From contig NZ_PIGG01000015.1 of NCBI RefSeq assembly GCF_002924445.1, forward strand, positions 1 through 64,000: 64,000 nucleotides of DNA, read 5' to 3'. Both the position numbers and the translations under genes were made by a program. The notes beneath the pieces are model-generated. The model saw only the letters and a list, made by a program, of their open reading frames with translations, had not been told where the DNA came from and made no database searches. Within the stretch, counting starts at the first letter, position 1. Each line of letters opens with the position of its first letter. This document shows, one piece after another, positions 15,313 to 57,166 of the stretch. The DNA is from Minwuia thermotolerans. Lineage in GTDB: Bacteria; Pseudomonadota; Alphaproteobacteria; Minwuiales; Minwuiaceae.

Positions 15313-15317
15313 ATCCT
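15313..15317. repeat. 5-bp target-site duplication, left copy (ATCCT)
   Basis: ATCCT immediately precedes TGT at 15318 and is repeated immediately after ACA at 57159-57161. Five-base duplications are what Mu transposition produces. Confidence 0.85.
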
Positions 15318-15431: not shown

Positions 15432-16250
15432 TCAGGGTGGAGCACCGCCGGAGATGATCAGCTCCGCTGCCGGTCGGGAACGGCCCTTGGTGAGCGTGTA
15501 CGTCGTCGTGACCTCCTCGATGGCGAAGCCGGCGAAGAGCTCCCGGATCTCCGGCGTGTCGTTGATGGACATCAGGAAGCAACCCTTCAGTCGGCCGAGT
15601 GCCTCGGCCATCTCCGCGAACTGCTCGCGGCCGAACAGATCCGTGCCGTAGTCGCCCTCGCTGCCCCAGTAGGGCGGGTCGAGGTAGAACAGCATGCCCG
15701 GCCGGTCGTAGCGCTCGATGAAGGCCCGCCATGGCAGGCATTCGACCACCACGCCGGCGAGGCGGCTGTGCACGTCCTCCAGCATCGGCGCCAGCGTGGT
15801 GACGTTGAAGCGGCCGCCATGGCCGGAGCTCACGCCGAAGTTCCGGCCCGCGACCTTGCCGCCGAAGGCCGTGCGCTGGAGATAGAGGAAGCGCGCGGCG
15901 CGCTCCAGGTCGGTCAGCGTCGCCGGATCGGTGGCCGACAGCCGCTCGAACTCAGCCCGGGTTGTGACCTGGAAGCGCATCATCTCCATGAAGGCCGTGT
16001 AGTGGCGCTGGAGGATGCGGAAGAAGTTGGCGACGTCGCGGCTCCGGTCGTTGATCACCTCGACCTTCGGCCGGGCCGTGCGGCGAAGGAAGACGCCGCC
16101 CATGCCGACGAAGACCTCGGCGTAGCCGTCGTGCGGCGTCTCGTTGATGCGCGCGACCAGGCGCTTGGCCAGGTTGCGCTTGCCGCCGACATAGGGCGCG
16201 ACGGGCCGCACCGGGTCGACGGGCGAGAGAGCGTTTGGATTCGACTCCAT
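15432..16250 (-). CDS. D12-class DNA adenine methyltransferase (Dam type)
   Basis: The protein has 272 residues. The SAM-binding start PYVGGKRNLAKRL (about 19-31), the FVGMGGVFLR segment (about 47-56) and the catalytic DPPY at 191-194 place it in the D12 N6-adenine class, which often methylates GATC or related short sites. It is the last gene before the phage right end, the position held by the DNA-modification gene mom in Mu, although this is an unrelated enzyme. It probably protects phage DNA from host restriction. Confidence 0.92.
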   Translation of the reverse strand: MESNPNALSPVDPVRPVAPYVGGKRNLAKRLVARINETPHDGYAEVFVGMGGVFLRRTARPKVEVINDRSRDVANFFRILQRHYTAFMEMMRFQVTTRAEFERLSATDPATLTDLERAARFLYLQRTAFGGKVAGRNFGVSSGHGGRFNVTTLAPMLEDVHSRLAGVVVECLPWRAFIERYDRPGMLFYLDPPYWGSEGDYGTDLFGREQFAEMAEALGRLKGCFLMSINDTPEIRELFAGFAIEEVTTTYTLTKGRSRPAAELIISGGAPP

Positions 16251-32028: not shown

Positions 32029-32865
32029 TCAGTAGGTGATTTCGAGGACGGTGTCGGCCACCCGGGCCGCGCTGTTGGCGCCGCCCACGGTGATGGCGAT
32101 GACGTCGCCGGCGGCCACGGTGTTGGCGGCCGTGGGCGTCGCCTCGTCGACGTCGCCGGCGGCCGAGCCGGCCTCGGCGATCGTGATCACGCCGTTGGTC
32201 ACGGGCGTGCCGTTGATCGAGAGCGTCAGCGTCGCGTCGCCGTCCGCCAGGGCGCCGTCGAGCACCGAGCGGAACTTCGTGATGTCGCCGGCGAGCGGCG
32301 CCACCAGGCGGTAGACGTCGGTGCCGCTCAGATCCGCGGCCTTGGCGTTGAGGAAGATCTTGTCGGCGCCGAGATTGCCGCGCGCGGCGGCCGCGTCATC
32401 GACGTCGCCCAGGTCGTTGGCGGCGAGCAGCGCGCCGTCCGGGCTGACCAGGACCTGCGGCCCGGTGCGGACCCAGACGCCCTGGGCGTCCACGTCGGTG
32501 ACGATGCCTGCGGGGCTGCGCGCGCCGCCATTGCTCGTCTTGGCGACCGTCTGGTCGTCGACGATCCAGCAGGCCTTGCCGATCTCGGAGACCGCGATCG
32601 CCTCGCCGCCCTCCGAATTGGCCCAGCGGAAGACGCCCTCGCGGATCCGGACGGTGATGTCACCATTGGCGCCGGCGGAGTTGTCGGCCCTCTCCTCGGC
32701 GCGGCCCACGGCCACCAGGCCAGTGGCGGTGGCGCCCTGCTGGACGAAGGCGCCGCTGAGCGCCACCAGGGCGCCGGCGTGGATCAGGGTCGCGGCCTTG
32801 ACGGGGAGGTCGTGGAAGACGCCCTCCATCAGCGGCGTGTTGCGGTCGGCGGAAAGCGCGGTCAC
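32029..32865 (-). CDS. Capsid cement/decoration-like protein
   Basis: At 278 residues the first half (VKAATLIHAGALVALSGAFVQQGATATGLVAVGRAEERADNS...) resembles small capsid cement proteins (DUF2190 type). The second half adds a Thr/Ala/Asp-rich beta extension ending in VADTVLEITY. Location between scaffold and capsid genes supports a head-stabilising role. The start overlaps the scaffold gene stop by ATGA. Confidence 0.7.
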   Translation of the reverse strand: MTALSADRNTPLMEGVFHDLPVKAATLIHAGALVALSGAFVQQGATATGLVAVGRAEERADNSAGANGDITVRIREGVFRWANSEGGEAIAVSEIGKACWIVDDQTVAKTSNGGARSPAGIVTDVDAQGVWVRTGPQVLVSPDGALLAANDLGDVDDAAAARGNLGADKIFLNAKAADLSGTDVYRLVAPLAGDITKFRSVLDGALADGDATLTLSINGTPVTNGVITIAEAGSAAGDVDEATPTAANTVAAGDVIAITVGGANSAARVADTVLEITY

Positions 32866-33452
32866 TGGCTGGTCTCCTCGTTCTCGTCACGGGCGGCCTT
32901 GAAGGCCTCGGCCGTGAGGCCCATCGACCGCGCGACCTGCAGCTCCTCGGCCGATAGACCGGACTTGTCGGTGTGCGCGGCGGCGGTGGCGATGGCCGGG
33001 TCGCGGCCGGCGGCGACGATCACCGGGGCCTTCTCGGCCCAGGCGGCGAAGCCCTCCGGGTCGGCGGTGGCGTAGTTCATCGCCCACTCGTTGAGCGCGG
33101 GCGAGACCTTGCCGGCCTTGGTCGCCGCCTCGACGGCGGCCTGCGCGCCGGAGGCGGCGCTCGCCGTCTCCAGCTTCTCGACGCGGGCCGCCAGCTCGTC
33201 ATAGGCGGGCTTCGGCACGTACTTCTTCGGGTCCGGCTCGGCGGAAGCGGTCTGCAGCTTCGCCGCGACGCCGGTGGCGACCGCCTCGGTCAGCTCGTCC
33301 TGGCCGGCGGCATTCGCGACCTTGGCCGCGGCCGTCTCCAGGGCGGTGTGCGAGGTCGAGAGCTGATCGGCCGCCGTGACGATGGCGGCGGCGTCGGCGT
33401 CGTCCGTCAGGCCGAACGCCTTCCGGAGCGCGGCCAGCTGTTCCTTGGTCAT
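32862..33452 (-). CDS. Internal scaffold protein (Mu gpZ-like), in frame within the protease gene
   Basis: An in-frame ATG at 33452 (MTKEQLAALRKAFGL) begins exactly at the protease/scaffold boundary and is preceded by AGGAGG 11 bases upstream. This would give a free 196-residue scaffold, the same strategy as Mu I/Z and lambda C/Nu3. The protein would line the procapsid and be cleaved by the longer form. Confidence 0.65.
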   Translation of the reverse strand: MTKEQLAALRKAFGLTDDADAAAIVTAADQLSTSHTALETAAAKVANAAGQDELTEAVATGVAAKLQTASAEPDPKKYVPKPAYDELAARVEKLETASAASGAQAAVEAATKAGKVSPALNEWAMNYATADPEGFAAWAEKAPVIVAAGRDPAIATAAAHTDKSGLSAEELQVARSMGLTAEAFKAARDENEETSQ

Positions 33453-33941
33453 GGTGGGGTCGTCCTCCTGGGCGTGTGCGACCGCAGGCAGCTCCTGGAT
33501 CGCGGGAACATTGACCAGACCGGCGCCGACGATGCGGGTGACGTTGCCCGCCTTGTCGGTGCCGAAGGCCGGAGAGATGAAGCGGTAGGCCCTGGACGCC
33601 AGCGCCTCGCGGCCCTCGGCGGTCCACTCGACGCGGCCGCGGATGGCGCCGTCTTCCGCCGCCTCCAGGCGGTCGATCCAGCCGACCGCGCGGCCGGTGC
33701 GGCCGGGCCGGGGCTTGTGGATGTCGTGATCGAAGTCGATGGGCAGGACGTGACCGGCGGCCGTGGCGAGCGAGGTCTCGACGACCTTGGCCGCGTCGGT
33801 CACCCGCCAGGAACCGCGGCCGTCGACGGGAACGACCTCGGCCCCGCCGGCGGGCCAGAGCGTGATCCAATCCCCACCATCGGCCGCCTCGGCGGCGGCG
33901 GTGACGGGCTGGGGCTGTCCGTATGCGAATTGCCGATCCAT
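32862..33941 (-). CDS. Head maturation protease-scaffold (Mu gpI-like)
   Basis: The start at 33941 gives 359 residues, essentially the length of Mu protein I (361). The N-terminal protease half has VLPIDFDHDIHKPRPGRTGRAVGWIDRLEA with a conserved His, then YRFISPAFGTDKAGNVTRIVGAGLVNVPAIQELPAV. The C-terminal half is a helical, Ala/Glu-rich scaffold. Longer in-frame starts to 34091 run through the operator. The gene begins 33 bases downstream of the 33974-33997 palindrome. Confidence 0.9.
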   Translation of the reverse strand: MDRQFAYGQPQPVTAAAEAADGGDWITLWPAGGAEVVPVDGRGSWRVTDAAKVVETSLATAAGHVLPIDFDHDIHKPRPGRTGRAVGWIDRLEAAEDGAIRGRVEWTAEGREALASRAYRFISPAFGTDKAGNVTRIVGAGLVNVPAIQELPAVAHAQEDDPTMTKEQLAALRKAFGLTDDADAAAIVTAADQLSTSHTALETAAAKVANAAGQDELTEAVATGVAAKLQTASAEPDPKKYVPKPAYDELAARVEKLETASAASGAQAAVEAATKAGKVSPALNEWAMNYATADPEGFAAWAEKAPVIVAAGRDPAIATAAAHTDKSGLSAEELQVARSMGLTAEAFKAARDENEETSQ

Positions 33942-33973
33942 GGGGCCGACTGTGCGGCTCCCGGCCCGGCCGG

Positions 33974-33997
33974 ATAAGGGCGTAACGGTTACGCCCC
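33974..33997 (-). promoter_or_regulatory. Candidate Mor operator 2 (protease-capsid operon)
   Basis: GGGCGTAACGGTTACGCCC (33978-33996) is a perfect 19-bp palindrome with one central base. A 24-base block around it is identical to that at 46355-46378. It lies upstream of the head operon. No good -35 box is visible beside it, as expected for activator-dependent middle or late promoters. Confidence 0.75.
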
Positions 33998-34174
33998 ACG
34001 GCCCGCCCCGCCCGGGATGGCGGAGGGTCGGCGGGCGGGGCGACTGTGCCTGGCCGGTCTTGCCGGACTGGGCCAGCCAGCCTCGCAACACGGCGGTCCG
34101 CCACCATGACGCCAGGGAAGAAAATTGTCTATTCTGTCGCCGTCAGGCGGGAAAAGACGAGGGGGACCGGGTTG

Positions 34175-36409
34175 ATGACCGAGCCGTCAGGGGAACAAGC
34201 CGAAATCCAGGAATGGACGATGAATAGCGATCGCCCGATCGCCGAGCCCGACGAGGATCAATTCGAGCTGACGTCCTTTGCCAGAACGATTGCCCGAGTG
34301 ATCGCAAAGAATCGCAGCGAGGACAGCTTCGTCCTCGGTGTCCACGGCCCTTGGGGCATCGGCAAGAGCAGCACGGTCGCCCTCGTCCGGCACTGCCTAG
34401 ATGCCGAGTTTGGTGAGGACAGGGAGAATCTGGAGATCATCGAGTTCAATCCCTGGTGGTTCACCGACAAGGAGTCCCTTCATGCGGATTTCTTTGCGGA
34501 ACTGGCGGCAGCGATGTCCCTGCCTGATAGGGAGAGAGCGCGTCTACGCGCCATCGGTCACCGCTTGGGAAAACACTCGGCCAGTATCGCGCCGATCGTT
34601 GGGCTGATCGGCGGATCCGCCATGGAGAAGGCTCTCAGGGCGACCGGCGGCGTGTTGCAGGACTTTCTTGAAGACCCCAAGGCCACTGTCCCACACGAGC
34701 ACCGGCGGATTTCGGACGCACTTCGGGAAGCAGGCAAGCGTTATCTCGTGGTCATCGACGATCTGGACCGGCTCGATATCGAAGAAGCGATGATGGTGTT
34801 CCAACTCGTGAAATCCTCAGGTCGATTGCCCAACATCACATACATGCTCGTTTTCGATCGAGCTCTGGTCGAGCGTCACCTTAAGGAAAGATTCTCAGGG
34901 GCAGACCAGCAGTATCTCGACAAGATCATCCAGGCTTCCTTCGAGGTGCCTCCTCCAGACAAGACTGACCTCCGCTACAAACTGCGGGAACAGGTCCTTC
35001 GCGCAGTGGATGCGCAGAACCAGGATGACGAGGCACGCATTCTGGACGTCCTTGTTGACGTGGTCTGGCCCTTCCTCAATACGGCGCGAGACCTGGCGCG
35101 GTTCGACAACGTCCTCAAAATCCTTTGGCCATCCGTCGAAGGTGAACTCGACAGGGCGGATTTCGTGGGCATCGAGGCTTTGCGGGTCTTTCTTCCTCTC
35201 CTGCATCGGCGCATTTTTGACAACAAGAATGCCGTGCTCCGACGTCCGGCAGCTCGCGGTCTTTCAGAGGACGACAGGGCTTCGATGACGAAGACGTTGT
35301 TCGACGGCCTTGATCAGCCATCGGTCAGAGTCCTTCAGCAAGCGCTATCGCGCCTATTCCCGAGGTTGGAGATCTACTGGGGTGGTAGTGGCTACGATTC
35401 CGATTGGGAAGCCGAATGGCGCAAGAACCGGCAGATCTGTAGCGAGACCTTTTTCGACTCGTATTTCCGCTATGCCATCGACGACAGCACGTTACCAGCC
35501 TCACAGTTGGATCAGATCATCAGTCAGTCGGGGGACGGGAAGACAGTTGCGAGCGCGCTGCGGAAAGCAAGCGCCCGACCCAGGCGCCAAGGCGGGACTA
35601 AAGCTGCCTCTCTGCTCGATGAGTTGGTGGTTCGCGCCGAGGACGTGCCCGAGCAGAATATCGAAAGCTTCCTCGGGGCTGTGTTCAGTGTGGTTGACGA
35701 GATCAATTTGCCGATAGACGGGTCCAGGCGGTTGGGGGATTTCGAGGACAACGAACTCCGCGCGCACTGGTTGCTCAACCGTTTCAGAGACCGAGTTTCC
35801 AAAGAGCAATTCGATCGTGCAGTCGTCCGGGCTGCGAAGCTCGCGTCTCTGCAGTTCCTTCTGAGCCTTGCGGATCGCGCATTACGAAACAACGGCCTGA
35901 TTGAGGGTCGACGAGGGGCCGAGCGATCCATCGTGTCAAGCGAGGCGGCAATCGAACTGCGTGATCTCGCATTGGAGGCGGTCACGCGGGCCGCATCCGA
36001 TATGTCCTTGCTTCAAGTACCCGAACTGGTTTCTTCGCTCTATGTGTGGATGCAACTGGAGGAGATGATGGGAGAGGAGACTGTCCGGGACTGGGTTCAG
36101 CAGAATCTGGAAGATCCTCAGCTCGTCGTGGCGCTTGCGGGTTCCTTTGTTTCCACGAACCAGTCGTCTTCTGGCCGCAGCAACGTCACTAGAACACGAT
36201 ATTTAGTTCACAAGAAGTTGGTCGCCGGGCTGTGCGATCCGAAACGACTGATTTCCTGTGTCGATGAACTTCTTGCGGGTCCCGGGACGACAGACGAGGA
36301 AAAGAGCACGCTACGCCACTTTCGCGAATTGTGGGATGAAGCCTCGGACGAAGAGCCCTTATTCGTAGAGCAATTGGCGCTCGATGAGGCGGACATGACA
36401 GAGGAGTAG
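34175..36409 (+). CDS. KAP-family P-loop NTPase (cargo)
   Basis: With the ATG at 34175 (G-rich ribosome site about 10 bases upstream) the protein has 744 residues; ATGs at 34106 or 34220 are alternatives. Walker A GPWGIGKSS is at 58-66, FNPWWF at 91-96 is a KAP hallmark, and Walker B LVVIDDLDRL is at 191-200. The C-terminal 500 residues are helical with no family I can name. KAP NTPases include the F-plasmid exclusion protein PifA and are recurrent in phage-defence loci. The gene runs against the phage late genes and is visibly less GC-rich than its neighbours, suggesting recent acquisition. Confidence 0.85.
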   Translation: MTEPSGEQAEIQEWTMNSDRPIAEPDEDQFELTSFARTIARVIAKNRSEDSFVLGVHGPWGIGKSSTVALVRHCLDAEFGEDRENLEIIEFNPWWFTDKESLHADFFAELAAAMSLPDRERARLRAIGHRLGKHSASIAPIVGLIGGSAMEKALRATGGVLQDFLEDPKATVPHEHRRISDALREAGKRYLVVIDDLDRLDIEEAMMVFQLVKSSGRLPNITYMLVFDRALVERHLKERFSGADQQYLDKIIQASFEVPPPDKTDLRYKLREQVLRAVDAQNQDDEARILDVLVDVVWPFLNTARDLARFDNVLKILWPSVEGELDRADFVGIEALRVFLPLLHRRIFDNKNAVLRRPAARGLSEDDRASMTKTLFDGLDQPSVRVLQQALSRLFPRLEIYWGGSGYDSDWEAEWRKNRQICSETFFDSYFRYAIDDSTLPASQLDQIISQSGDGKTVASALRKASARPRRQGGTKAASLLDELVVRAEDVPEQNIESFLGAVFSVVDEINLPIDGSRRLGDFEDNELRAHWLLNRFRDRVSKEQFDRAVVRAAKLASLQFLLSLADRALRNNGLIEGRRGAERSIVSSEAAIELRDLALEAVTRAASDMSLLQVPELVSSLYVWMQLEEMMGEETVRDWVQQNLEDPQLVVALAGSFVSTNQSSSGRSNVTRTRYLVHKKLVAGLCDPKRLISCVDELLAGPGTTDEEKSTLRHFRELWDEASDEEPLFVEQLALDEADMTEE

Positions 36410-36528
36410 TGACCATCCGGGTGACCATCGACAGCCTGCACGTCATCAGCAGCGTCCAGACCGTCGGCGGCGTCATTACGCTGTTGTTCCTGCTGCTCAC
36501 GCTGCGCAACCGCTTCAAAATGCACTGA
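36409..36528 (+). CDS. 39-residue single-span membrane peptide
   Basis: GTG at 36409 shares a base with the stop of the NTPase gene, and GAGGAG lies 2 bases upstream; a second in-frame GTG is at 36421. The peptide has a polar N-terminus (VTIRVTIDSLHVISS), one hydrophobic span (VGGVITLLFLLLTL) and a basic tail (RNRFKMH). It could be a small membrane effector or a regulator of the NTPase. Its short length makes the call tentative, but the overlap and composition favour a real gene. Confidence 0.5.
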   Translation: MTIRVTIDSLHVISSVQTVGGVITLLFLLLTLRNRFKMH

Positions 36529-36562
36529 CGCCACCGGCGCCGCGTGCAGGCAGATTGCAACT

Positions 36563-36850
36563 GTGGCGCGGCGCAATGCGATCGCCGATCATCGCCCCAT
36601 GGCCGCGTCGCGCACCGTTCTGGATCTGGTCGAGGATCGCATGATCGCGATCCGCTGCACCCGCTGCGGCAAGAACGGGCGCTACCGCCTGCGCACCCTG
36701 CTGCGCCGCTTCGGCCCCGGGATGGCGGTGCCGGACATGCTCACGGCCCTTCGCGACGCCGGCCGCTGCCCGCGCCGCGGCGATCGGTGGAGCGGCTGCA
36801 GCCTGGCGCTGGCCGAGACACCCGGACCCGAGTTTCTAATAGACGAATAA
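36563..36850 (+). CDS. Small zinc-ribbon-like protein
   Basis: A GTG at 36563 or ATG at 36599 gives 95 or 83 residues. IAIRCTRCGKNGRYRLRTLL holds one CxxC, and the C-terminal half has CPRRGDRWSGC, so two Cys pairs may bind zinc. The helix between resembles compact nucleic-acid-binding proteins. It is codirectional with its neighbours in the island. Whether it belongs to the defence cassette or is a phage gene I cannot tell. Confidence 0.65.
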   Translation: MARRNAIADHRPMAASRTVLDLVEDRMIAIRCTRCGKNGRYRLRTLLRRFGPGMAVPDMLTALRDAGRCPRRGDRWSGCSLALAETPGPEFLIDE

Positions 36851-37020
36851 TAGCCACTAAAAGGGGGCAGGAGCGGCGAGAGCCGGTTCCGGGCCCATCG
36901 GCTCCCGCCGAACCCGAGAAGCCCCCTGACGGCCCCCTGAGAGCGACCCGGGTTGCCGGCTTCATCGCGCATGCACCAGAATGTTGCCGGACGAGCACAA
37001 GAGGGGGCGTGGCCGGCATC

Positions 37021-38448
37021 ATGGCGGAGACCGAGTACGACCTGTTCCTGAGCTTTGCGCGGAACAGCGCGGAGGCGGATTCCATTTCCGACCTAGCGTT
37101 TCGCCTGCAGCGTGAGGTCTACGGGGTCGGCCTGAAGAACGTCCATATCTGGGTGGATCGGAGCGAAGACCCCGCCGCCGAGGCCTGGGAGCGGGCGTGC
37201 GCCGGTGAAAACGATGGCAGCGCCGTTCTTCTGGCCTTCATAACCCCGGCCTGGTTCTCGGACCCCCTGTGCCGCCTGGAGGCGCAACTCTTCCAGTCTT
37301 TCGAGAGACAACTCGGCCGCAAGGACCTGATTCTGCCGGTGCGCTTTCTGCCGACGCGTGACATCGAATTCCCCCGAACGTCGGCCCACCCCAAACTTGC
37401 GGCAGATCTGGTGTCGCGATGGTTGCTTCGTGTCGACGACATGGCGGCCGAAGAGGCCAACGGATTTCGAGGCAGCGCCGAAAGGTTGGCGCTTCTCCTC
37501 AAGGGCCAACTCGGTCAGCAGGATCGGGAACCGGCGAGATATGGTCAGGCCACATACGGGAAATCCAGCTTTGGGCGGGCCAGACTTGGGCAGGCAAGGT
37601 GGAGATCAGCCGAAGAGCTAAATGAGGAGAAAGCGGCCAAGCCGCGACTCGAGGAACCGCAGCTCCGGGCACCGGACCTGCCCCGAGAGGATCTTCGCGC
37701 CCTGAGCGTGGAAGAGGGCGCCACGAAGATCGAGGAGTGGTTCCTTCGGAACTACGAACCGCCGGAGATGGGGACGCCAAGAAATGACGGCGAGTACAAT
37801 TACATCTGGGGTGGCCCCTACGAGACCATCGACGTGATTGAGCAATATTTCGATGACGTCGCTACCTGGGAGCAAATGGAGCGCGCCGCCCTAGAGCTTG
37901 ACCGGTACTCCTTCGAGTGGGCGCCGCACGGAGCGCGAATCCGTCCGTCCGACGATGATACGTGGCAGAATCGGCAGACGAAATGGGAGGAGGAGACCCG
38001 TCCCTGGAACGATGAGCGCTTCTCCGCGGCCAAAGCCCATCAGGACATGCTCCAGCGCATCGAGCAACTGGAAGCGGCACTGGAGAAGATCGGTCAGGGC
38101 CCCGCCGGCATGGGTCACAACCAGCCGCCGGAACCCATCCCCGATGAGCTGCCGATCACCCGAGCGGAATTCGAACAGCTGTCCCACGACGTGGCGCATC
38201 TGAAATCGCTGCCCGCGCAGCCGGATCGCGACCAACTGACCGAAGTGAAGGCCATCCAGGATCGAACCGAATCTCTCGGCCGGCGGATTGCCGGCTGGAT
38301 CCTGAAGAAGGCTGACCGGTTCGTAGATGCTACTGTGATCGTGGCCGGCACGAAGGCCGGCTCGGAGATTCTGGGTATCGCGCCCGCCCTGTTGGAGGTC
38401 GGCCAGACGATCTGGACATGGCTCACGACGCTGGGCTGGCGTTTGTAG
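37021..38448 (+). CDS. TIR-domain protein with pentapeptide-like repeats and hydrophobic C-terminus (cargo)
   Basis: The protein has 475 residues. Residues 1-130 are a TIR domain: EYDLFLSFARN opens it, VHIWVDR follows, and DPLCRLEAQLF carries the probable catalytic Glu87 of NAD-consuming TIRs. Residues 173-192 are four tandem five-residue units (YGQAT, YGKSS, FGRAR, LGQAR). Residues about 236-305 form a domain with the motif YNYIWGGPYETIDVIEQYF, which I have seen in other uncharacterised proteins. A GHNQPP linker at 366-371 and a coiled coil lead to a hydrophobic C-terminus (437-475). The gap 36851-37020 upstream has no gene. The likely role is an NAD-depleting or signalling effector in phage defence. 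Confidence 0.85.
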   Translation: MAETEYDLFLSFARNSAEADSISDLAFRLQREVYGVGLKNVHIWVDRSEDPAAEAWERACAGENDGSAVLLAFITPAWFSDPLCRLEAQLFQSFERQLGRKDLILPVRFLPTRDIEFPRTSAHPKLAADLVSRWLLRVDDMAAEEANGFRGSAERLALLLKGQLGQQDREPARYGQATYGKSSFGRARLGQARWRSAEELNEEKAAKPRLEEPQLRAPDLPREDLRALSVEEGATKIEEWFLRNYEPPEMGTPRNDGEYNYIWGGPYETIDVIEQYFDDVATWEQMERAALELDRYSFEWAPHGARIRPSDDDTWQNRQTKWEEETRPWNDERFSAAKAHQDMLQRIEQLEAALEKIGQGPAGMGHNQPPEPIPDELPITRAEFEQLSHDVAHLKSLPAQPDRDQLTEVKAIQDRTESLGRRIAGWILKKADRFVDATVIVAGTKAGSEILGIAPALLEVGQTIWTWLTTLGWRL

Positions 38449-38486
38449 CGACGGGGACGACAACCTGTTCGAACGGAGCAATTGGC

Positions 38487-39206
38487 ATGGACCCAGATGA
38501 TCTGGCAGACGCGTTTGCGAAGATCGATTGGGCCGATACTCAGATCGATGCTCTCGATCAGAAGCTTAGGGGATTTCTGGATCAGAAGCCCTATCGGCTG
38601 AGACCGGTGCCGGATCCCGAGGGGCGCGGCCTGATCTATTTCTTCAAGACTGCGGCTCCCGTGCCCCGGTCAATCGGCGTTCAGACTGGCGCCATCATCC
38701 ACGCGCAGCGAAGCGCGCTCGACCTTCTCGCCTGCGCTCTCGCCGAGCGCAACGGCCATCGGGAGCCCTCCGATACTTACTTTCCTTTCGCCAAATCGGA
38801 GCAGGGACTCGCCGACAAGAGAACCAGGAAGAAGTTTCGGCGTCTTTCCGAAGCGGACCAGGCAGCAATTCTGGGCTTCCGACCGTTTCGCGGCGGCAAC
38901 GCGCTACTCTACGCTCTTCACCATCTGGACCTGACGGATAAGCACCGGAAGCTGCTTGTCTGCGGCATAGAACGCGGGGACGCCCACGTCAGCGGCAACG
39001 GTCATATCAGGCTGATCGCGCTCTGGGATGGCCCCTACACCGATGGCGACCCAGTCGCACGATGGGACGCCGACGAGGGCCTGCAGTTGAACATCACGCT
39101 GAGCGTATCGCTGGCCGACGTTCCCGACATCGGTCGTCCGCCCGTTGCCGAGATGCTCCGGAAATTCAGCGAAATGACGCGGTCGATCTTGGAGTCCTTC
39201 CAATAG
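38487..39206 (+). CDS. Uncharacterised 239-residue partner of the TIR protein (cargo)
   Basis: The start at 38487 has GGAG 8 bases upstream and lies 38 bases after the TIR gene stop, so the two are probably cotranscribed. Residues 67-90 (TGAIIHAQRSALDLLACALAERNG) and 144-154 (LHHLDLTDKHR) match a widespread family of unnamed proteins with an RSALD helix and an LHxLDxxDKH motif. The helical arrangement is reminiscent of HEPN-like folds, but the canonical R-x4-6-H motif is absent. Function is unknown. It could be a sensor, an immunity protein, or an unrelated moron. Confidence 0.7.
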   Translation: MDPDDLADAFAKIDWADTQIDALDQKLRGFLDQKPYRLRPVPDPEGRGLIYFFKTAAPVPRSIGVQTGAIIHAQRSALDLLACALAERNGHREPSDTYFPFAKSEQGLADKRTRKKFRRLSEADQAAILGFRPFRGGNALLYALHHLDLTDKHRKLLVCGIERGDAHVSGNGHIRLIALWDGPYTDGDPVARWDADEGLQLNITLSVSLADVPDIGRPPVAEMLRKFSEMTRSILESFQ

Positions 39207-39319
39207 CCCCTGCCTTCGGATCCGTCATCGAGGCCATCCACCGATCTGCACTGAGCACTTTTGGGAGGTCATCTCCAATCGGTCCCACAACCGCCGGCCC
39301 TCTGGCTTTCATCGCGGCG

Positions 39320-39420
39320 GGCGGATCGCTATATTGACGGTGCCGGCGGGATACACGGTGAAAGTCCCGAAGCCGTAGCAGGCGCCTTCGGCGTCGAGCG
39401 CAATGTGGGTTCAGATCGGG
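39320..39420 (+). other. Structured noncoding stretch at the cargo boundary
   Basis: The 232-base gap 39207-39438 has no gene. Within it GGTGCC, CGGTGAAAGTCC and a CCGTAGCAGG segment follow one another, then a short hairpin GGCGC-CTTCG-GCGTC. The GGTGAAAGTCC string occurs in group II intron RNAs and resembles a cobalamin riboswitch box, but neither structure is complete. It may be a scar of the insertion that brought in the island. Confidence 0.3.
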
Positions 39421-39438
39421 CGCCCACCCCGCCGGTCT

Positions 39439-40635
39439 TCAATCTCCGCGGTCGATCTTCCGGCGACGCCGCTGCTGGCGCAGGGCGTTCTCGCGGCGCA
39501 CTTTCGTGAACGAGGTCAGGAACGCCGCCTGCCCGTCCGCTGTCGCCTTCAGGGCGATGCGGTAGAAGCGGCCCTCGTGCTCCGAGAAGATCAGCAGGCT
39601 CCGCTCCCGGTCGCTGTAGACCGATCCGCCGCCGATGAGGTCTGGAAGACGTCGATAATCGACGAGGGTCAGCTCCGGGTGGCCGGGATTGCCGGGCAGC
39701 TCGCCGCGCTGTTTCCGCATGGTGTCGGCCGAGAGATCCACGCGCTGCACGTCCGTCCCGATCGCGGCCGCGAGCGCCTCGTCCAGCCAGGCGACCGGCG
39801 CGGCGCCCCCGGCGGTGCCGCGGACGATATCCTCGAAGTGCGGGCTCTCCACCGCGGCCCTGGCGGCGGCGTGGCCCCAGTCGGCATCCGTGTAGCGGGC
39901 CGGATCGGGAAACCGCCCCTCGGCCGCCATACCGGGATTGTGGCCCCAGCCCGGATCGATGCCGGCCGGGGCCTCGATCACCTCGCCGGTCCGGCGGTTG
40001 ACGTGCGCCCGGCCGGGCCCGCTCTCGGGCGGCGGCTCGGTCACCTGCCAGCCGCGCCGGCGCATCTGGCCCTCGGAGACCTGCTGGACCTGGCAGCGGC
40101 AGCGCCAGCCGTTGGGCGGGTAATGCGTCTGCCAGAACACGTGGTCGACCGGCAGCAGCGTGCCATGCCAGGCGCGGTGCTGCGGCCGCGTGCGCCCGTC
40201 CAGGACGGCGACGTAGCGGAGATACGGCAGATCCTGTTTCGTCGCCTGGATACGGGTCCAGTGGCCGGCGGCGTGGGCGGCGCGGAGATTGGCGTCGTAG
40301 ATGATGCGGAGCCGCCGGTCGGAGCCGAGCTGCGCCTCGATCGTCTCGCCGGTGAGCTCGTCGAACATGGGCTTGCGGCCCCACCAGCCCAGCTCCTTCA
40401 GCCGGGGCGTGAGCGTCTTGCGGAAATCCTGGAACGTCGTCCCGCCGGCCAGGGCGCGATCGAGCTCGCCCCGGATCGCCTCCATGACGTCGAGGCGCAT
40501 CGCCTTGGCCACCGTGAAGGCCTGGCCGTGCTGCTCGGCCGAGACGTCGCGCCAGCTGAAGCCGGTGAGGTAGCCTTTGGAGCGGAAGAAGGCGACGGCC
40601 TCGGCCGGCGGCAGCGGTTCGAGCTCGATCGCCAC
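39439..40635 (-). CDS. MuF head morphogenesis protein with C-terminal toxin-like domain
   Basis: This 398-residue protein is the Mu gp30/SPP1 gp7-type minor head protein: SRWDVSAEQH-like FSWRDVSAEQHGQAFTVAKAM, then RYVAVLDGRTRPQHRAWHGTLLPVDHVFW and HYPPNGWRCRCQVQQV, the usual MuF motif. After residue about 300 a separate domain (RVDLSADTMRKQRGE...YRRLPDLIGGGSVYSDRERSLLIFSEHEGRFYRIALKA) matches the phage barnase/EndoU/ColicinE5-like nuclease (PBECR) domains fused to MuF proteins. That domain may act as an ejected or polymorphic toxin. Confidence 0.85.
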   Translation of the reverse strand: MAIELEPLPPAEAVAFFRSKGYLTGFSWRDVSAEQHGQAFTVAKAMRLDVMEAIRGELDRALAGGTTFQDFRKTLTPRLKELGWWGRKPMFDELTGETIEAQLGSDRRLRIIYDANLRAAHAAGHWTRIQATKQDLPYLRYVAVLDGRTRPQHRAWHGTLLPVDHVFWQTHYPPNGWRCRCQVQQVSEGQMRRRGWQVTEPPPESGPGRAHVNRRTGEVIEAPAGIDPGWGHNPGMAAEGRFPDPARYTDADWGHAAARAAVESPHFEDIVRGTAGGAAPVAWLDEALAAAIGTDVQRVDLSADTMRKQRGELPGNPGHPELTLVDYRRLPDLIGGGSVYSDRERSLLIFSEHEGRFYRIALKATADGQAAFLTSFTKVRRENALRQQRRRRKIDRGD

Positions 40636-50865: not shown

Positions 50866-51200
50866 CGCCGCCCCCTGAAGTCTTCCAGGCGCACCACCGG
50901 CTGCGTCGGGTCGGGCTCGAAGCTCGCCACCTCGCCGAAGCCGTCGATCTGTTGCGGCGCGGCCTCGCGATAGCCGGCCGGCGGCGGGACTTCGCCGGGC
51001 CGGCAGACGCGGACGGTCGAGCCGCCAAGGGCGTGCTGTGCGGGCTCGGCGACCACCCGCATCAGCTCCAGTTCGGCGACCCGTTCGATCGTCTCCTCGA
51101 AGCCGAGCAGCGCATACTGAAGCCGCTCCTCGGTGAGCTCGCCGCTCCGCATCAGGTCGCGGAGCTGGTCGACATGGTGTTGCAGGTCAGTGCTGAGCAT
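50862..51200 (-). CDS. Early phage protein of unknown function
   Basis: The ATG at 51200 (GGAGG 5 bases upstream) gives 112 residues; the ATG at 51212 lacks a site. LSTDLQHHVDQLRDLMRSGELTEERLQYALLGFEETIERVAELELMRVV is helical, followed by a Pro-rich region and FEPDPTQPVVRLEDFRGRR. It lies between the MuB gene and the DnaA-like gene, overlapping MuB by 14 bases. No family recognised. Confidence 0.6.
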   Translation of the reverse strand: MLSTDLQHHVDQLRDLMRSGELTEERLQYALLGFEETIERVAELELMRVVAEPAQHALGGSTVRVCRPGEVPPPAGYREAAPQQIDGFGEVASFEPDPTQPVVRLEDFRGRR

Positions 51201-52158
51201 TGTCGCCTCCATCCTCGGAGAGCCGCTTCCAGGCGGCGCTGACGTGGGTGACGTTGAGCGGCTCCCCCTTGCTGTTGGCAAAGGCGCTCGCGATGCGCAG
51301 CACCTTGGTCATGCCGCGGAGCGCGCCCGGCTTGGTGGCGACCGCCTTCAGCAGCCGGACCGTGTCCGGGTCGGTGACCTTCCAGGCGCCGATCAGTTCG
51401 CAGACGTCTTCCGGCCAGGGCTTGCCTCGCGTGAACCGCATGCCGATCCGGCTGAACAGCTGCGCGAACTCCGGCCGCCGGCCCTCGCCCTGCAGCCGGC
51501 CGTAGACACTCTCGTTGCCCACCAGCGCGATACCGACGCCGTAGAGGTCGTGGAGCGAGCGGAGCTGGTCGAGCGCCTTGGAGACCAGGTGCTGGGCTTC
51601 GTCGACGATCAGCAGCCCGCCCGTGTCGCGCACCCGGGCGCCGATGGCCTCGGGCAGCTTCGTCGGGCTCTTCTCGGTCAGCTGCAGGGCCTGGGCGATG
51701 ACCTGGAGCATCGGATAGACGTTTGCCGTCGACGGCTGCATGGTCGCCATCCAGACATTCGGGTTCGTCCCGGCGTAATGCCCGCAGGCCGTGGTCTTGC
51801 CGATACCGGCGCCGCCGGCGACGACGACGATGTCCGGCCCGATTTGCGCCCATTGCAGGACGTCGGTGACACTCGAAGCGGTCCGGGTTTTCACGAACAT
51901 CGGCGCCTGCGGCAGGGACGAACGGGCGCGTTTGCGTTCCTCGCGGGAAGCAAGCCAGAGCTGCACCTTGCCGGCGACATTGTCGTTCCGGCCGGTATAG
52001 GTGCCCGACAGCCAGGCGCTCATGGTCGGCGCAGCAATGCCGGCGTCCCGGGCGGCTGAGGCGTGAGAAAGGTTCTCGTCCGCGATCAGCTTCTTCGCCT
52101 CGGCGCGGATCGCCTCGATCTCGGCGTCTGTAAGGGTCTGGTCCTTGGGAGCGTTCAT
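51187..52158 (-). CDS. Transposition ATPase MuB
   Basis: At 323 residues (Mu B is 312) this protein selects target DNA and activates the transposase. Residues 1-75 hold a helix-turn-helix (ASAARDAGIAAPTMSAWLSGTY). Walker A is GGAGIGKTT (about 113-121), Walker B is LLIVDEAQH (about 181-189). The C-terminal domain has TKVLRIASAFA. It follows the transposase gene by 66 bases. Confidence 0.93.
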   Translation of the reverse strand: MNAPKDQTLTDAEIEAIRAEAKKLIADENLSHASAARDAGIAAPTMSAWLSGTYTGRNDNVAGKVQLWLASREERKRARSSLPQAPMFVKTRTASSVTDVLQWAQIGPDIVVVAGGAGIGKTTACGHYAGTNPNVWMATMQPSTANVYPMLQVIAQALQLTEKSPTKLPEAIGARVRDTGGLLIVDEAQHLVSKALDQLRSLHDLYGVGIALVGNESVYGRLQGEGRRPEFAQLFSRIGMRFTRGKPWPEDVCELIGAWKVTDPDTVRLLKAVATKPGALRGMTKVLRIASAFANSKGEPLNVTHVSAAWKRLSEDGGDNAQH

Positions 52159-52224: not shown

Positions 52225-54168
52225 CTACTCCTCGATCAGCCGGAGGTGACGGCGCTCCTGCGCCATCGTCCGGGCGAACGCCTCGTCGAAATCGAAATCC
52301 TGTTCCTCCGCCGGCGCCGCCGCGGCCGCCTGGCTGCCATTCGCGACCAGACGGATTGCCGGGGCCTCGGGCGCTACCGGCTCGTCCACGTCGGGCAGCA
52401 GCCGCGCGTACTCCTCCAGCGAGAGCGACTTCTCGATTTCCGCCGCTTCCCTGGTCGCGCGCTTGAAGGCGCTGCGTTTGCGGTTGTGGTCGCGCGCCTG
52501 GCCCGTGTCGGCGAAGCCGGCGGCCTCCAGGCACGCGGCCTCGGCGATCATCTGCCCGTCCAGGCGATAGACGGTGATGCCGTCGTGGAGATGATCGGGG
52601 TCGAAGCGGACGGTCAGGGCCTCGCCGGCGTGTTCGACCAGAGCCTCGGACCAGTAGCGGTTGCCCAGCAGCCGGATGGAGCCGGACTCACGGTCGGCGC
52701 GGACCTTCTCGGCGGCGAGCATGCACATGCGCAGCTGCTCCGGCGTCGCCTTCCGTATCAGCGACTGGCTGTAGCTCTGTCGGAACGCCTCCTCGAAGCT
52801 GAGCTTCCGGCGGCAGACCCGCGTGTTGCGGCCTGGCCGCGTGTTGTGCAGACGGATGCCCTGCTCGACGGTCTCGATGAAAGTCTCCACCGGTACCGCC
52901 TTCGAGCCGTAGTTCTCGGGCTTCGCGTCGGGGCGATTGCCGGTATAGGCGCCCTCGAAGGCGGGATGCTTCGCGATGGAATCGCAGAGGTCTTTGAAGG
53001 CGCGCTCGATCGGCTTCGATTGGCCGCTGTAGGGGCGGGTCCAGTGGATTTCCATGCCGAGCGCCGTCAGCACGCCGGCGGGCTCCTCGGGCTTCACCTT
53101 GAAGCGGTAGCGGTTGGGCGTGCCGCCGGTGATCCACTTCGAGGCGAAGCCCCGGCCATTGTCCAGCCAGACGCGATCGGGAATGCCGTACTTGCGGAAG
53201 ACGTCGCCGAAGGCGAGCCGCACCGTGTCGGCGTTCTCGCTGACATCGAAGCGCCAGCTCAGGAGGGCGCCGGAATAGAGGTCCTGGATGGCGACCATCA
53301 TCGGCCGCACGATTCTGCCGTCGTACCACCGCACGAAGACGTCCCACTTGTGGCCGTCCGCGTTCACCGCTTCCAGGGCGTGGAACAAGGAGCGGTCGCG
53401 CTCCTGCGGCGGGTAGAGCCGGTGCAGGGCGTCATAGCCCTCGCGCAGCAGCACCTGCACCGGTCGCGGGATTTCGTTCTCGAGGCGCCGTTGCAGGGTC
53501 CGCTTCGCCGGGATGGTCCAGCCATGTTCGCCGGCGGCGAGCTCCAGCCGCTGGTAGCAGGTCTCGAAACTCGGCTGCGACAGTCGGAGATAGTCGGCCT
53601 TCAGAAACTCCCAGGCGCGCGGATCGCATCCGGCGGTCTTCGTCCGGCCGGTGTGCTTCGGCGCCAGCGCCGGCAGCCAGTCGGCGCGATCGAGACCTGC
53701 CACGAGACGGAACCAGTCATAGACCGCCGACTTGCCGACCTTGTGGGCGTTGGCGACGGCGCAGACGGCGTTGTTCTTCGACATGCCGCCGCGTTTCAGC
53801 GCCTCGATCTCCTCCAGGACCTTCAGCCGTTCCCGCGCCTTGCGCTTCCGGCTGTCAGGCAGGCTCTCGAACCAGCTCCAGTCGACCCGCTCGGCCGTCG
53901 ATCCGGGCGCCGTCGGCGCGGCCGTGTCGACGGGCGCGGCCAGCGCGGCCTTCGCGATGGCCATCTGCGCCCGCTCGGGCAGAACGCTGCGGTGGTACTC
54001 CATGCCCCCGCCGCGGCCCCTGCGCTTCCGGGCCAAAGGGTCGCCGGCGACCCTCCGCCGGTCGGCCCAGCACTCCCGCCTGGCCATCAGCTGGATCGCG
54101 CGAACAGTGGTCGGCAGACCACTCAGCCCTGCCTCCGCCAGCTCGGCCGCTGTCCACCAGTCCTTCAT
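52225..54168 (-). CDS. Transposase MuA
   Basis: The start at 54168 (MKDWWTAAELAEAGLSGLP) shares a base with the upstream stop, giving 647 residues against 663 for Mu A. An N-terminal winged helix is followed by the bipartite end-binding region and the DDE core: Asp271 (NADGHKWDVFV), Asp336 (WLDNGRG), Glu388 (KPIERAF), with spacing close to Mu. FDVSENADTVRLAF and NRYRFKVK are near-identical to Mu A. The C-terminal helices (AREAAEIEKSLSLEEYARLLPD) include the MuB/ClpX contact region. Confidence 0.96.
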   Translation of the reverse strand: MKDWWTAAELAEAGLSGLPTTVRAIQLMARRECWADRRRVAGDPLARKRRGRGGGMEYHRSVLPERAQMAIAKAALAAPVDTAAPTAPGSTAERVDWSWFESLPDSRKRKARERLKVLEEIEALKRGGMSKNNAVCAVANAHKVGKSAVYDWFRLVAGLDRADWLPALAPKHTGRTKTAGCDPRAWEFLKADYLRLSQPSFETCYQRLELAAGEHGWTIPAKRTLQRRLENEIPRPVQVLLREGYDALHRLYPPQERDRSLFHALEAVNADGHKWDVFVRWYDGRIVRPMMVAIQDLYSGALLSWRFDVSENADTVRLAFGDVFRKYGIPDRVWLDNGRGFASKWITGGTPNRYRFKVKPEEPAGVLTALGMEIHWTRPYSGQSKPIERAFKDLCDSIAKHPAFEGAYTGNRPDAKPENYGSKAVPVETFIETVEQGIRLHNTRPGRNTRVCRRKLSFEEAFRQSYSQSLIRKATPEQLRMCMLAAEKVRADRESGSIRLLGNRYWSEALVEHAGEALTVRFDPDHLHDGITVYRLDGQMIAEAACLEAAGFADTGQARDHNRKRSAFKRATREAAEIEKSLSLEEYARLLPDVDEPVAPEAPAIRLVANGSQAAAAAPAEEQDFDFDEAFARTMAQERRHLRLIEE

Positions 54169-54626
54169 CAGCGGATGCCCTTTCGGGCGAGGCGGCGCGC
54201 CATGTCGTAGTGGCGGTCCAGGTCTTCCTTGGCGTCGGCCAGCTGGCCCACTTCGACCCAGGGCAGCCAGCGGTCCTCGATCACCGACCAGCCCAACGGC
54301 TCCGCCGCGATCTGCAGCAGCCGCCGGTCGCCGGTGACGTGGACCAGCGCCATCAGACGCAGGAAGCTGATCGTGTGTTCTTCCTTCGCCGGGCTGGCAT
54401 AGGCGTCGAGCGTCGACTTGCTGACGGCCTCGCCGAGCCACTCCGACATGGCCTTGGCCACCTCGCTGCGGTCGAATTCGCAGTCGTTCAGCGTCTCGGA
54501 AATGGCCCGCGCGATCCTGATCCTGAGGTCGGCGGCGCGGACGCGCTGCTCGTCATAGCGCGCCACCAGCTTGGGCGGCTCCCATTCGAACAGGTCCAGC
54601 GTCTGACCATCCCGGCGCCGCGCCAT
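54168..54626 (-). CDS. Early protein between ParB-like and MuA
   Basis: The start at 54626 shares a base with the parB-like stop (TGATG); the stop does the same with muA. The product has 152 residues. RRDGQTLDLFEWEPPKLVARYDEQRVRAADLRIRIARAISETL precedes RSEVAKAMSEWLGEAVSKSTLDAYASPAKEEHTISFLRLMALVHVTGDRRLLQIAAEPLG, which has the look of a Cro-like helix-turn-helix. Its position suggests a role in control of transposition. I cannot assign a named family. Confidence 0.72.
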   Translation of the reverse strand: MARRRDGQTLDLFEWEPPKLVARYDEQRVRAADLRIRIARAISETLNDCEFDRSEVAKAMSEWLGEAVSKSTLDAYASPAKEEHTISFLRLMALVHVTGDRRLLQIAAEPLGWSVIEDRWLPWVEVGQLADAKEDLDRHYDMARRLARKGIR

Positions 54627-57161: not shown

Positions 57162-57166
57162 ATCCT
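57162..57166. repeat. 5-bp target-site duplication, right copy (ATCCT)
   Basis: ATCCT follows the terminal ACA of the prophage and matches 15313-15317. Removing one copy and the prophage restores a continuous host intergenic sequence. Confidence 0.85.

Follow-up and report, generated by a model that had tools for sequence, protein, structure and literature searches.

Do the five rightward genes that interrupt the leftward head operon of a Mu-like prophage in Minwuia thermotolerans form one undescribed defence system, or do they fill a cargo site with unrelated genes? The locus lies at 34175-39206 of a stretch of 64,000 nucleotides (contig NZ_PIGG01000015.1, positions 1 to 64,000; hereafter the window), and the original prediction, made from the letters of this DNA, was an undescribed defence cassette carried by the prophage. 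The reading favoured here, with a probability of about 0.6, is that of a cargo slot of a Mu-like phage holding a composite block of probably separately acquired genes, with two unrelated exclusion modules as its core: an NTPase of the PifA family (P0001) and a fusion protein with a TIR domain (P0003). The slot and its genes were as follows.

34002-39292, no strand: cargo slot, bounded by the end (34001) and the restart (39293) of identity with a sister prophage (BLAST and alignment with the genome G003); GC 0.611 vs 0.704
34175-36409, plus strand: KAP P-loop NTPase of the PifA family, P0001, 744 amino acids (PADLOC PifA, Pfam KAP, comparison with F PifA, Walker motifs)
36409-36528, plus strand: possible 39-residue single-span membrane peptide (translation; 1-base overlap with the KAP stop)
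36563-36850, plus strand: CxxC protein, 95 amino acids (paralogous to two genes on contig C26 of the own genome)
37021-38448, plus strand: P0003, 475 amino acids, with a TIR domain (about residues 9-111, Glu87) ahead of a C-terminal half with HEPN/RES-NTD1-like and GHNQPP parts
38487-39206, plus strand: 239-residue protein of an unnamed family (relatives in the genomes G003, G280 and G323 and on one plasmid)

The carrier is a Mu-like transposable prophage, with MuA, MuB, a 5-bp target duplication and Mu-type head genes all present. The direct repeat ATCCT flanked it at 15313-15317 and 57162-57166, and its termini read TGTAGCGCG on the left and TTAACA on the right. The MuA transposase was encoded at 52225-54441 (Pfam DDE_2, 2.5e-62) and the MuB C-terminal domain at 51187-52158 (Pfam, 7.1e-23), and PHROGs assigned the protease, the major head protein, MuF, the portal and both terminase subunits. 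All five rightward frames that had been claimed between MuF and gpI, against the direction of the head operon, existed, and the claimed KAP and TIR domains were recovered (Pfam KAP, 2.7e-44; TIR_2, 4.2e-07). With these genes in it, the interval from MuF to the protease measured 5.5 kb. Further features were the following.

15318-57161, no strand: Mu-like transposable prophage carrying the island (ATCCT repeats; MuA and MuB by Pfam; head genes by PHROGs)
32862-33941, minus strand: gpI head-maturation protease, left neighbour (phrog_328, E = 2.2e-68)
39439-40635, minus strand: MuF minor head protein, right neighbour (phrog_220, E = 7e-90)
36822-36882: element of about 60 bp common to this slot and the sister slot, where it is inverted (G003, contig C1, 82021-82093, minus strand); overlaps the end of the CxxC gene

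The sister prophage, in another species of the same genus (G003), was 85-95% identical in its main blocks on both sides of the slot; to the right, alignment restarted at 39293 (79%, 123 columns) and then at 39653 (94%). In its slot stood genes for DUF3800 and DUF3892 proteins and for a small CxxC protein, together with a relative of the 239-residue gene (71%), and because the sister prophage bears different genes there, the slot was taken as an exchangeable cargo site. The GC content of 34002-39292 was 61.1%, vs 70.4% in the remaining prophage; among windows of island length, sampled every 50 bases, the five lowest in GC started at 34018-34218, 16-216 bases inside the island. The element of about 60 bp consisted of a CTAATAGACGAATAATAG core, a GGGGGCAGGAGC stretch and a short GAGA-loop hairpin, the stem letters of which differed between the two copies with pairing kept (hairpin and pairing by eye). 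A match of this element in IMG/VR (L150) was rejected as chance, as it fell within a long reading frame in an AT-rich phage and covered only the 19-base core. Another IMG/VR contig, 3300035329_000003, considered as a further sister phage, showed no difference from G003 in the 6.5 kb compared (100% identity) and was therefore left uncounted. In the sister slot itself, inverted ends TGTCTCAGTTTGAAAT and ATTTCAAACTGAGACA bracketed about 0.6 kb (about 2100-2750 of L029; by eye), probably a small insertion element.

As judged from its sequence, the KAP gene is not novel and encodes a PifA-family NTPase. P0001 matched the PADLOC PifA model with residues 15-667 on model positions 4-674 of 720 (E = 2e-105) and contained a Walker A motif, GPWGIGKS, at residue 58 and a Walker B motif, LVVIDDLDR, at residue 191. 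A profile of P0001 and six relatives from the class matched F PifA over residues 14-691 (235.8 bits), so that the two proteins, of 744 and 741 residues, were colinear beyond the NTPase domain. The F-plasmid query is annotated as a P-loop NTPase beside pifC, and we take it to be PifA. P0001 differed in setting, being an island gene carried by a phage, and no relative of PifC was found in the window (tblastn, best E = 0.58); pifC was regarded as characteristic of the F operon rather than of the PifA protein family. PADLOC hits of P0001 to QatA, the KAP protein of the Qat system, were weak, and Qat was rejected since the NCBIfam QatA score (48.4 bits) fell far under the cut-off (600). A sequence search of the Protein Data Bank (PDB) with the PifA relative returned only a designed repeat protein, which was unusable.

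At E <= 1e-30, P0001 had relatives in 10 of 384 other genomes drawn from the class. The flanks of eight of the ten, about 1.5 kb on each side and one cut by a contig end, were inspected (L098 and L099 were left out), and no partner common to the PifA relatives was seen in them; profiles of the 239-residue and TIR proteins found nothing there either, the CxxC protein and the 39-residue peptide not being among the queries. A PifA relative was matched in 1,024 plasmid records and in none of 50,697 phage records (E <= 1e-5), and none was reported for a Mu-like phage among the open-licence literature matches listed. The excerpted text of PMC8594841 describes F PifA as an abortive-infection protein that is suspected of depolarising the membrane after sensing T7 proteins, and links sensitivity to Gp1.2, with some role for the capsid protein Gp10.

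In P0003, residues 9-111 matched Pfam TIR_2 (4.2e-07; 30.9 bits, cut-off 28), and Glu87, within CRLE, aligned with a Glu in a TIR protein from G024; it is presumably the catalytic glutamate. PADLOC models returned no family for this protein (E <= 0.1). From about residue 215 to its end, P0003 resembled proteins that stand alone and are about 270 residues long. Searching a genome collection of 84,980 species for [WY]I[WY]GGPY[DEY] yielded 66 stretches, of which 46 were confirmed as loci; the motif started at frame residue 39-80 in 36 of the 46 and deeper in ten. By eye, the motif-bearing proteins ran on into a GIGHNxPP segment or into HEPN-like or other domains, and one of them (L066) had a long PIN-like leader. 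A TIR profile search found no TIR domain at any of the 46 loci, with a profile from two sequences that a distant TIR domain would escape.

Pfam searches on 36 proteins, those of 35 of the loci and P0003 (alignment A2), gave HEPN_RES_NTD1 in 28, RiboL-PSP-HEPN in 7, PIN_8 in 1, PIN_12 in 1 and TIR_2 in 1, which was P0003. Eleven loci were left out of A2 for brevity (L050, L061, L065, L067, L070, L073, L074, L078, L084, L086 and L088); several were near-duplicates, fragments or of doubtful start, and L067 is the protein of the G233 locus used in alignment A1. In nine of the eleven the motif started at residue 49-79 and there was therefore no space for a preceding TIR domain, and the other two had longer leaders outside the Pfam scan (L086, motif at 140; L050, motif at 224). 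As a link to the HEPN/RES-NTD1 proteins (PF18870), the C-terminal half of P0003 and the 46 loci have in common a core of W-F ... E-x-P ... I-[WY]-G-G-P-Y, but in P0003 the domain comes after a TIR domain. To our knowledge, the HEPN/RES-NTD1 domain has been described from sequence only. The excerpted text of PMC3710099 lists it with HEPN, RES, an ABC ATPase and two other novel domains and gives fusions to HEPN and RES; the TIR fusions named there are with AbiJ-NTD2, -3 and -5 and with one DUF4145-type HEPN protein.

Four plasmid records matched P0003, with its C-terminal half only, and none of the 50,697 phage records held a relative (E <= 1e-5). Neither a PDB sequence search with the TIR protein nor the peptide patterns used in IMG/VR for the TIR, 239-residue and PifA proteins found any. 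A fusion of TIR to HEPN/RES-NTD1 was not reported among the open-licence literature matches listed. The AlphaFold model of P0003, from a single sequence, was poor (pLDDT 45.7).

Co-occurrence of the families was searched over about 1.5 kb per side at the PifA relatives and up to 5 kb per side at the 46 loci with the C-terminal domain of P0003. No locus fetched from outside the own genome held two of the PifA, TIR and 239-residue families, and none of the 46 loci had a TIR, PifA or 239-residue relative. Conserved association of the three proteins across genomes, which had been expected of a single system, thus did not appear within the DNA searched. The original prediction stands as far as it described low-GC prophage cargo in a variable slot, opposing the late operon and including two proteins of exclusion or conflict families; a single undescribed system is not borne out, as the KAP protein belongs to a described family, PifA, and the families did not co-occur in the fetched loci outside this genome. 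Two unrelated modules with other genes beside them would be the better reading of these loci.

An effector and regulator pair formed by the TIR and 239-residue genes, with the PifA-like gene independent, is unlikely. The two are adjacent on one strand and 38 bases apart, and they would overlap if the 239-residue gene started at ATG 38418 (262 residues), but no TIR relative was found around the 239-residue family in the other genomes (80 kb examined in G003, 18 kb on one side in G280, where the contig ends just behind the gene, and up to about 10 kb around G323), nor a PifA relative. Conversely, the C-terminal half of the TIR protein occurred without a 239-residue gene in the DNA examined at 46 of 46 loci.

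Still less likely is joint action of the PifA-like NTPase, the TIR protein and the 239-residue partner as a single multi-gene defence system, for example with the NTPase as sensor activating the TIR effector. The five genes do stand close together on one strand, opposite the head operon, and the three large ones are alike in low GC (0.58-0.63). This reading was unsupported because no fetched second locus held two of the three families; moreover, the sister slot retains a 239-residue relative without PifA and TIR, the inspected flanks of PifA relatives showed no common partner, and the shared element of about 60 bp divides the KAP and CxxC part from the TIR gene.

The same interval was compared in other Mu-like phages and prophages. 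Relatives of the protease were found in 13 of 385 genomes drawn from the class, the own genome among them, and eight of the twelve others supplied the nine prophage regions examined. MuF and the protease were both visible in eight of the nine regions, and one region (the second copy in G384) duplicated another. Raw distances between the matched parts ran from 400 to 2,085 bp, some of them upper limits owing to partial MuF matches. A gpG-type gene lay within the interval in G262, and in G344 MuF was not seen in the stretch examined. In the Mu-like prophage of G010, a 374-residue PIN_12 protein (E = 1.9e-22; L143, 898-2019) was encoded in the interval from MuF to the protease, in the same direction as the head genes, and would be toxin-type cargo in the same slot.

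Among the phage records, 198 of 50,697 matched the protease, and the annotation around it was inspected in 14. Anti-CRISPR genes and a winged-helix gene immediately preceded the protease in DMS3 and Ab30 according to this annotation. Small hypothetical genes occupied the interval in six of the 14 (Pelagibaca P1, Rhodovulum P1, GXNNB6, CF74a, RC1 and R24; in RC1 the MuF gene is unlabelled and the interval uncertain), and in another six (POA1180, MuM16-2, FP_Mushu, UMP151, ThpS-P1 and 3927AP2) it was empty or held only a gpG-type or virion-morphogenesis gene. In none of the 14 was either a KAP or a TIR protein named in the interval.

By gene order, between MuF or neck genes and the protease, the island slot corresponds to the anti-CRISPR locus of the Pseudomonas Mu-like phages DMS3 and Ab30; it differs in that the island cargo is much larger (5.5 kb), lies on the strand opposite to the head genes and consists of exclusion-type genes. 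The anti-CRISPR genes of D3112 and relatives lie in a low-GC, variable region of plasticity, RGP G (PMC4378225), the position of which relative to the protease is not given in the portion of that source consulted. A further likeness is to the defence hotspots of P2, P4 and other prophages, as presented in the excerpted text of PMC9122126, in which a prophage or satellite site carries swappable cargo including a TIR protein; two further hotspots there differ in adjoining a repressor, or a regulator and integrase region, and the words 'Mu-like' and 'transposable' are absent from that text.

The equivalence with the DMS3 and Ab30 interval is what speaks for counter-defence or phage-regulatory cargo, not directed at rival phages, yet this is quite improbable, since the anti-CRISPR proteins of those phages are small and the island carries a PifA-family NTPase and a TIR protein, both from families linked to exclusion or cell suicide. 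That the block is decayed passenger DNA without present function would fit the missing promoter-like site but is hardly credible with its frames open and Walker A, Walker B and TIR Glu87 retained.

If the block is, as favoured here, a composite with two unrelated exclusion modules, the orientation of its genes opposite the head operon suggests that they are expressed in the lysogen. The PifA-family NTPase would then act as a single-gene abortive-infection module, triggered by a product of an incoming phage, and would stop the infection, perhaps through membrane damage as suggested for PifA. In the second module, sensing of infection would fall to the C-terminal half of P0003; the TIR domain, which has kept the glutamate expected of an NADase, would become toxic by consuming nicotinamide adenine dinucleotide (NAD) or would make a signal from it. 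Either module might protect the lysogen. The CxxC protein, the 39-residue peptide and the 239-residue protein would probably be accessory, or adjacent with no fixed association.

Several results weigh against this composite reading. The identity of P0001 to F-plasmid PifA was low (BLASTP, 22% over 489 residues), and the target range of F PifA is narrow, only 2 or 3 phages of the BASEL panel being affected according to the excerpted text of PMC8594841. P0003 had no match to PF18870 up to E = 1, so its link to HEPN/RES-NTD1 rests on its relatives, of which L044 and L046 matched PF18870 barely over the cut-off and L045 had no match at E <= 0.1. Expression in the lysogen was not favoured by the promoter scan of 33800-39700, which found no sigma-70-like site (1.1 expected). 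The 1-base overlap of the KAP gene with the 39-residue frame and the alternative start of the 239-residue gene inside the TIR gene fit coupled genes.

A wider proposal is tentative. The interval between MuF and the protease may be a general arms slot of Mu-like phages, holding anti-CRISPRs in Pseudomonas and, in alphaproteobacterial phages, genes of exclusion or toxin type (PifA, the TIR fusion, PIN and DUF3800), and the TIR protein may be a new single-protein immune switch, in which a sensor of HEPN/RES-NTD1 type controls a TIR NADase in place of the usual RNase (HEPN, PIN or RES). PifA relatives and prophage cargo are already known; within the searches made, the fusion of TIR to a HEPN/RES-NTD1-related domain was new, as was the presence of PifA and TIR in a slot that holds anti-CRISPRs elsewhere. 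If the slot serves both anti-CRISPR and anti-phage genes, intervals between MuF and the protease would be a simple hunting place for new genes of defence and counter-defence, in which sister prophages would serve as built-in controls. The TIR fusion allows a direct test of HEPN/RES-NTD1 as a sensor, a domain that precedes RNase-type toxins and here follows TIR. The PifA relative would add a distant second form of a classical exclusion protein, one whose trigger and action are poorly understood.

The 239-residue protein had no Pfam, PADLOC, PHROGs or NCBIfam family. Its relatives were in G003 (71%), G280 (38%) and G323 (30%) and on a Paenarthrobacter plasmid (28%; one plasmid record). The AlphaFold model, from a four-sequence alignment, was poor (pLDDT 47.7), and a Foldseek search with it placed HEPN toxins (entries of MntA-HepT) on top at E = 1 or worse, a lead only. 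By eye, the sequence lacked the HEPN motif.

Of the five genes observed, the two small ones are the least well supported. The chromosomal paralogues of the CxxC protein on contig C26 were 71-73% identical to it, with 48-49% for a copy with an internal stop codon; among the 384 other genomes drawn from the class, 8 had weaker relatives, and none of the 50,697 phage records matched (E <= 0.01). The 39-residue peptide had a hydrophobic stretch (hydropathy 2.1) and a coding-like GC3 (GC content at third codon positions) of 0.93, and as a short query found no match in the 11 stretches searched.

A palindrome, GGGCGTAACGGTTACGCCC, was found at 33978-33996, at the edge of the slot and directly upstream of the protease gene, with the same letters in the sister prophage, and is a candidate operator of the head operon. 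Rfam gave nothing in 33900-39500 up to E = 1. At the extreme left end of the prophage (15432-16250) lay a D12-class adenine methyltransferase gene (Pfam, 1e-22), possibly for protection of phage DNA from restriction. Contigs C4, C15 and C37 of the own genome (G000) shared the same 57,161 bases (window 1-57161), which include 15.3 kb of host DNA with translations that by eye resemble ftsH, tol-pal and ruvABC. C15 and C37 diverged only beyond the right phage end, and the three identical contigs with divergence past that end indicate a second right-end junction, by transposition, together with duplicated assembly paths.

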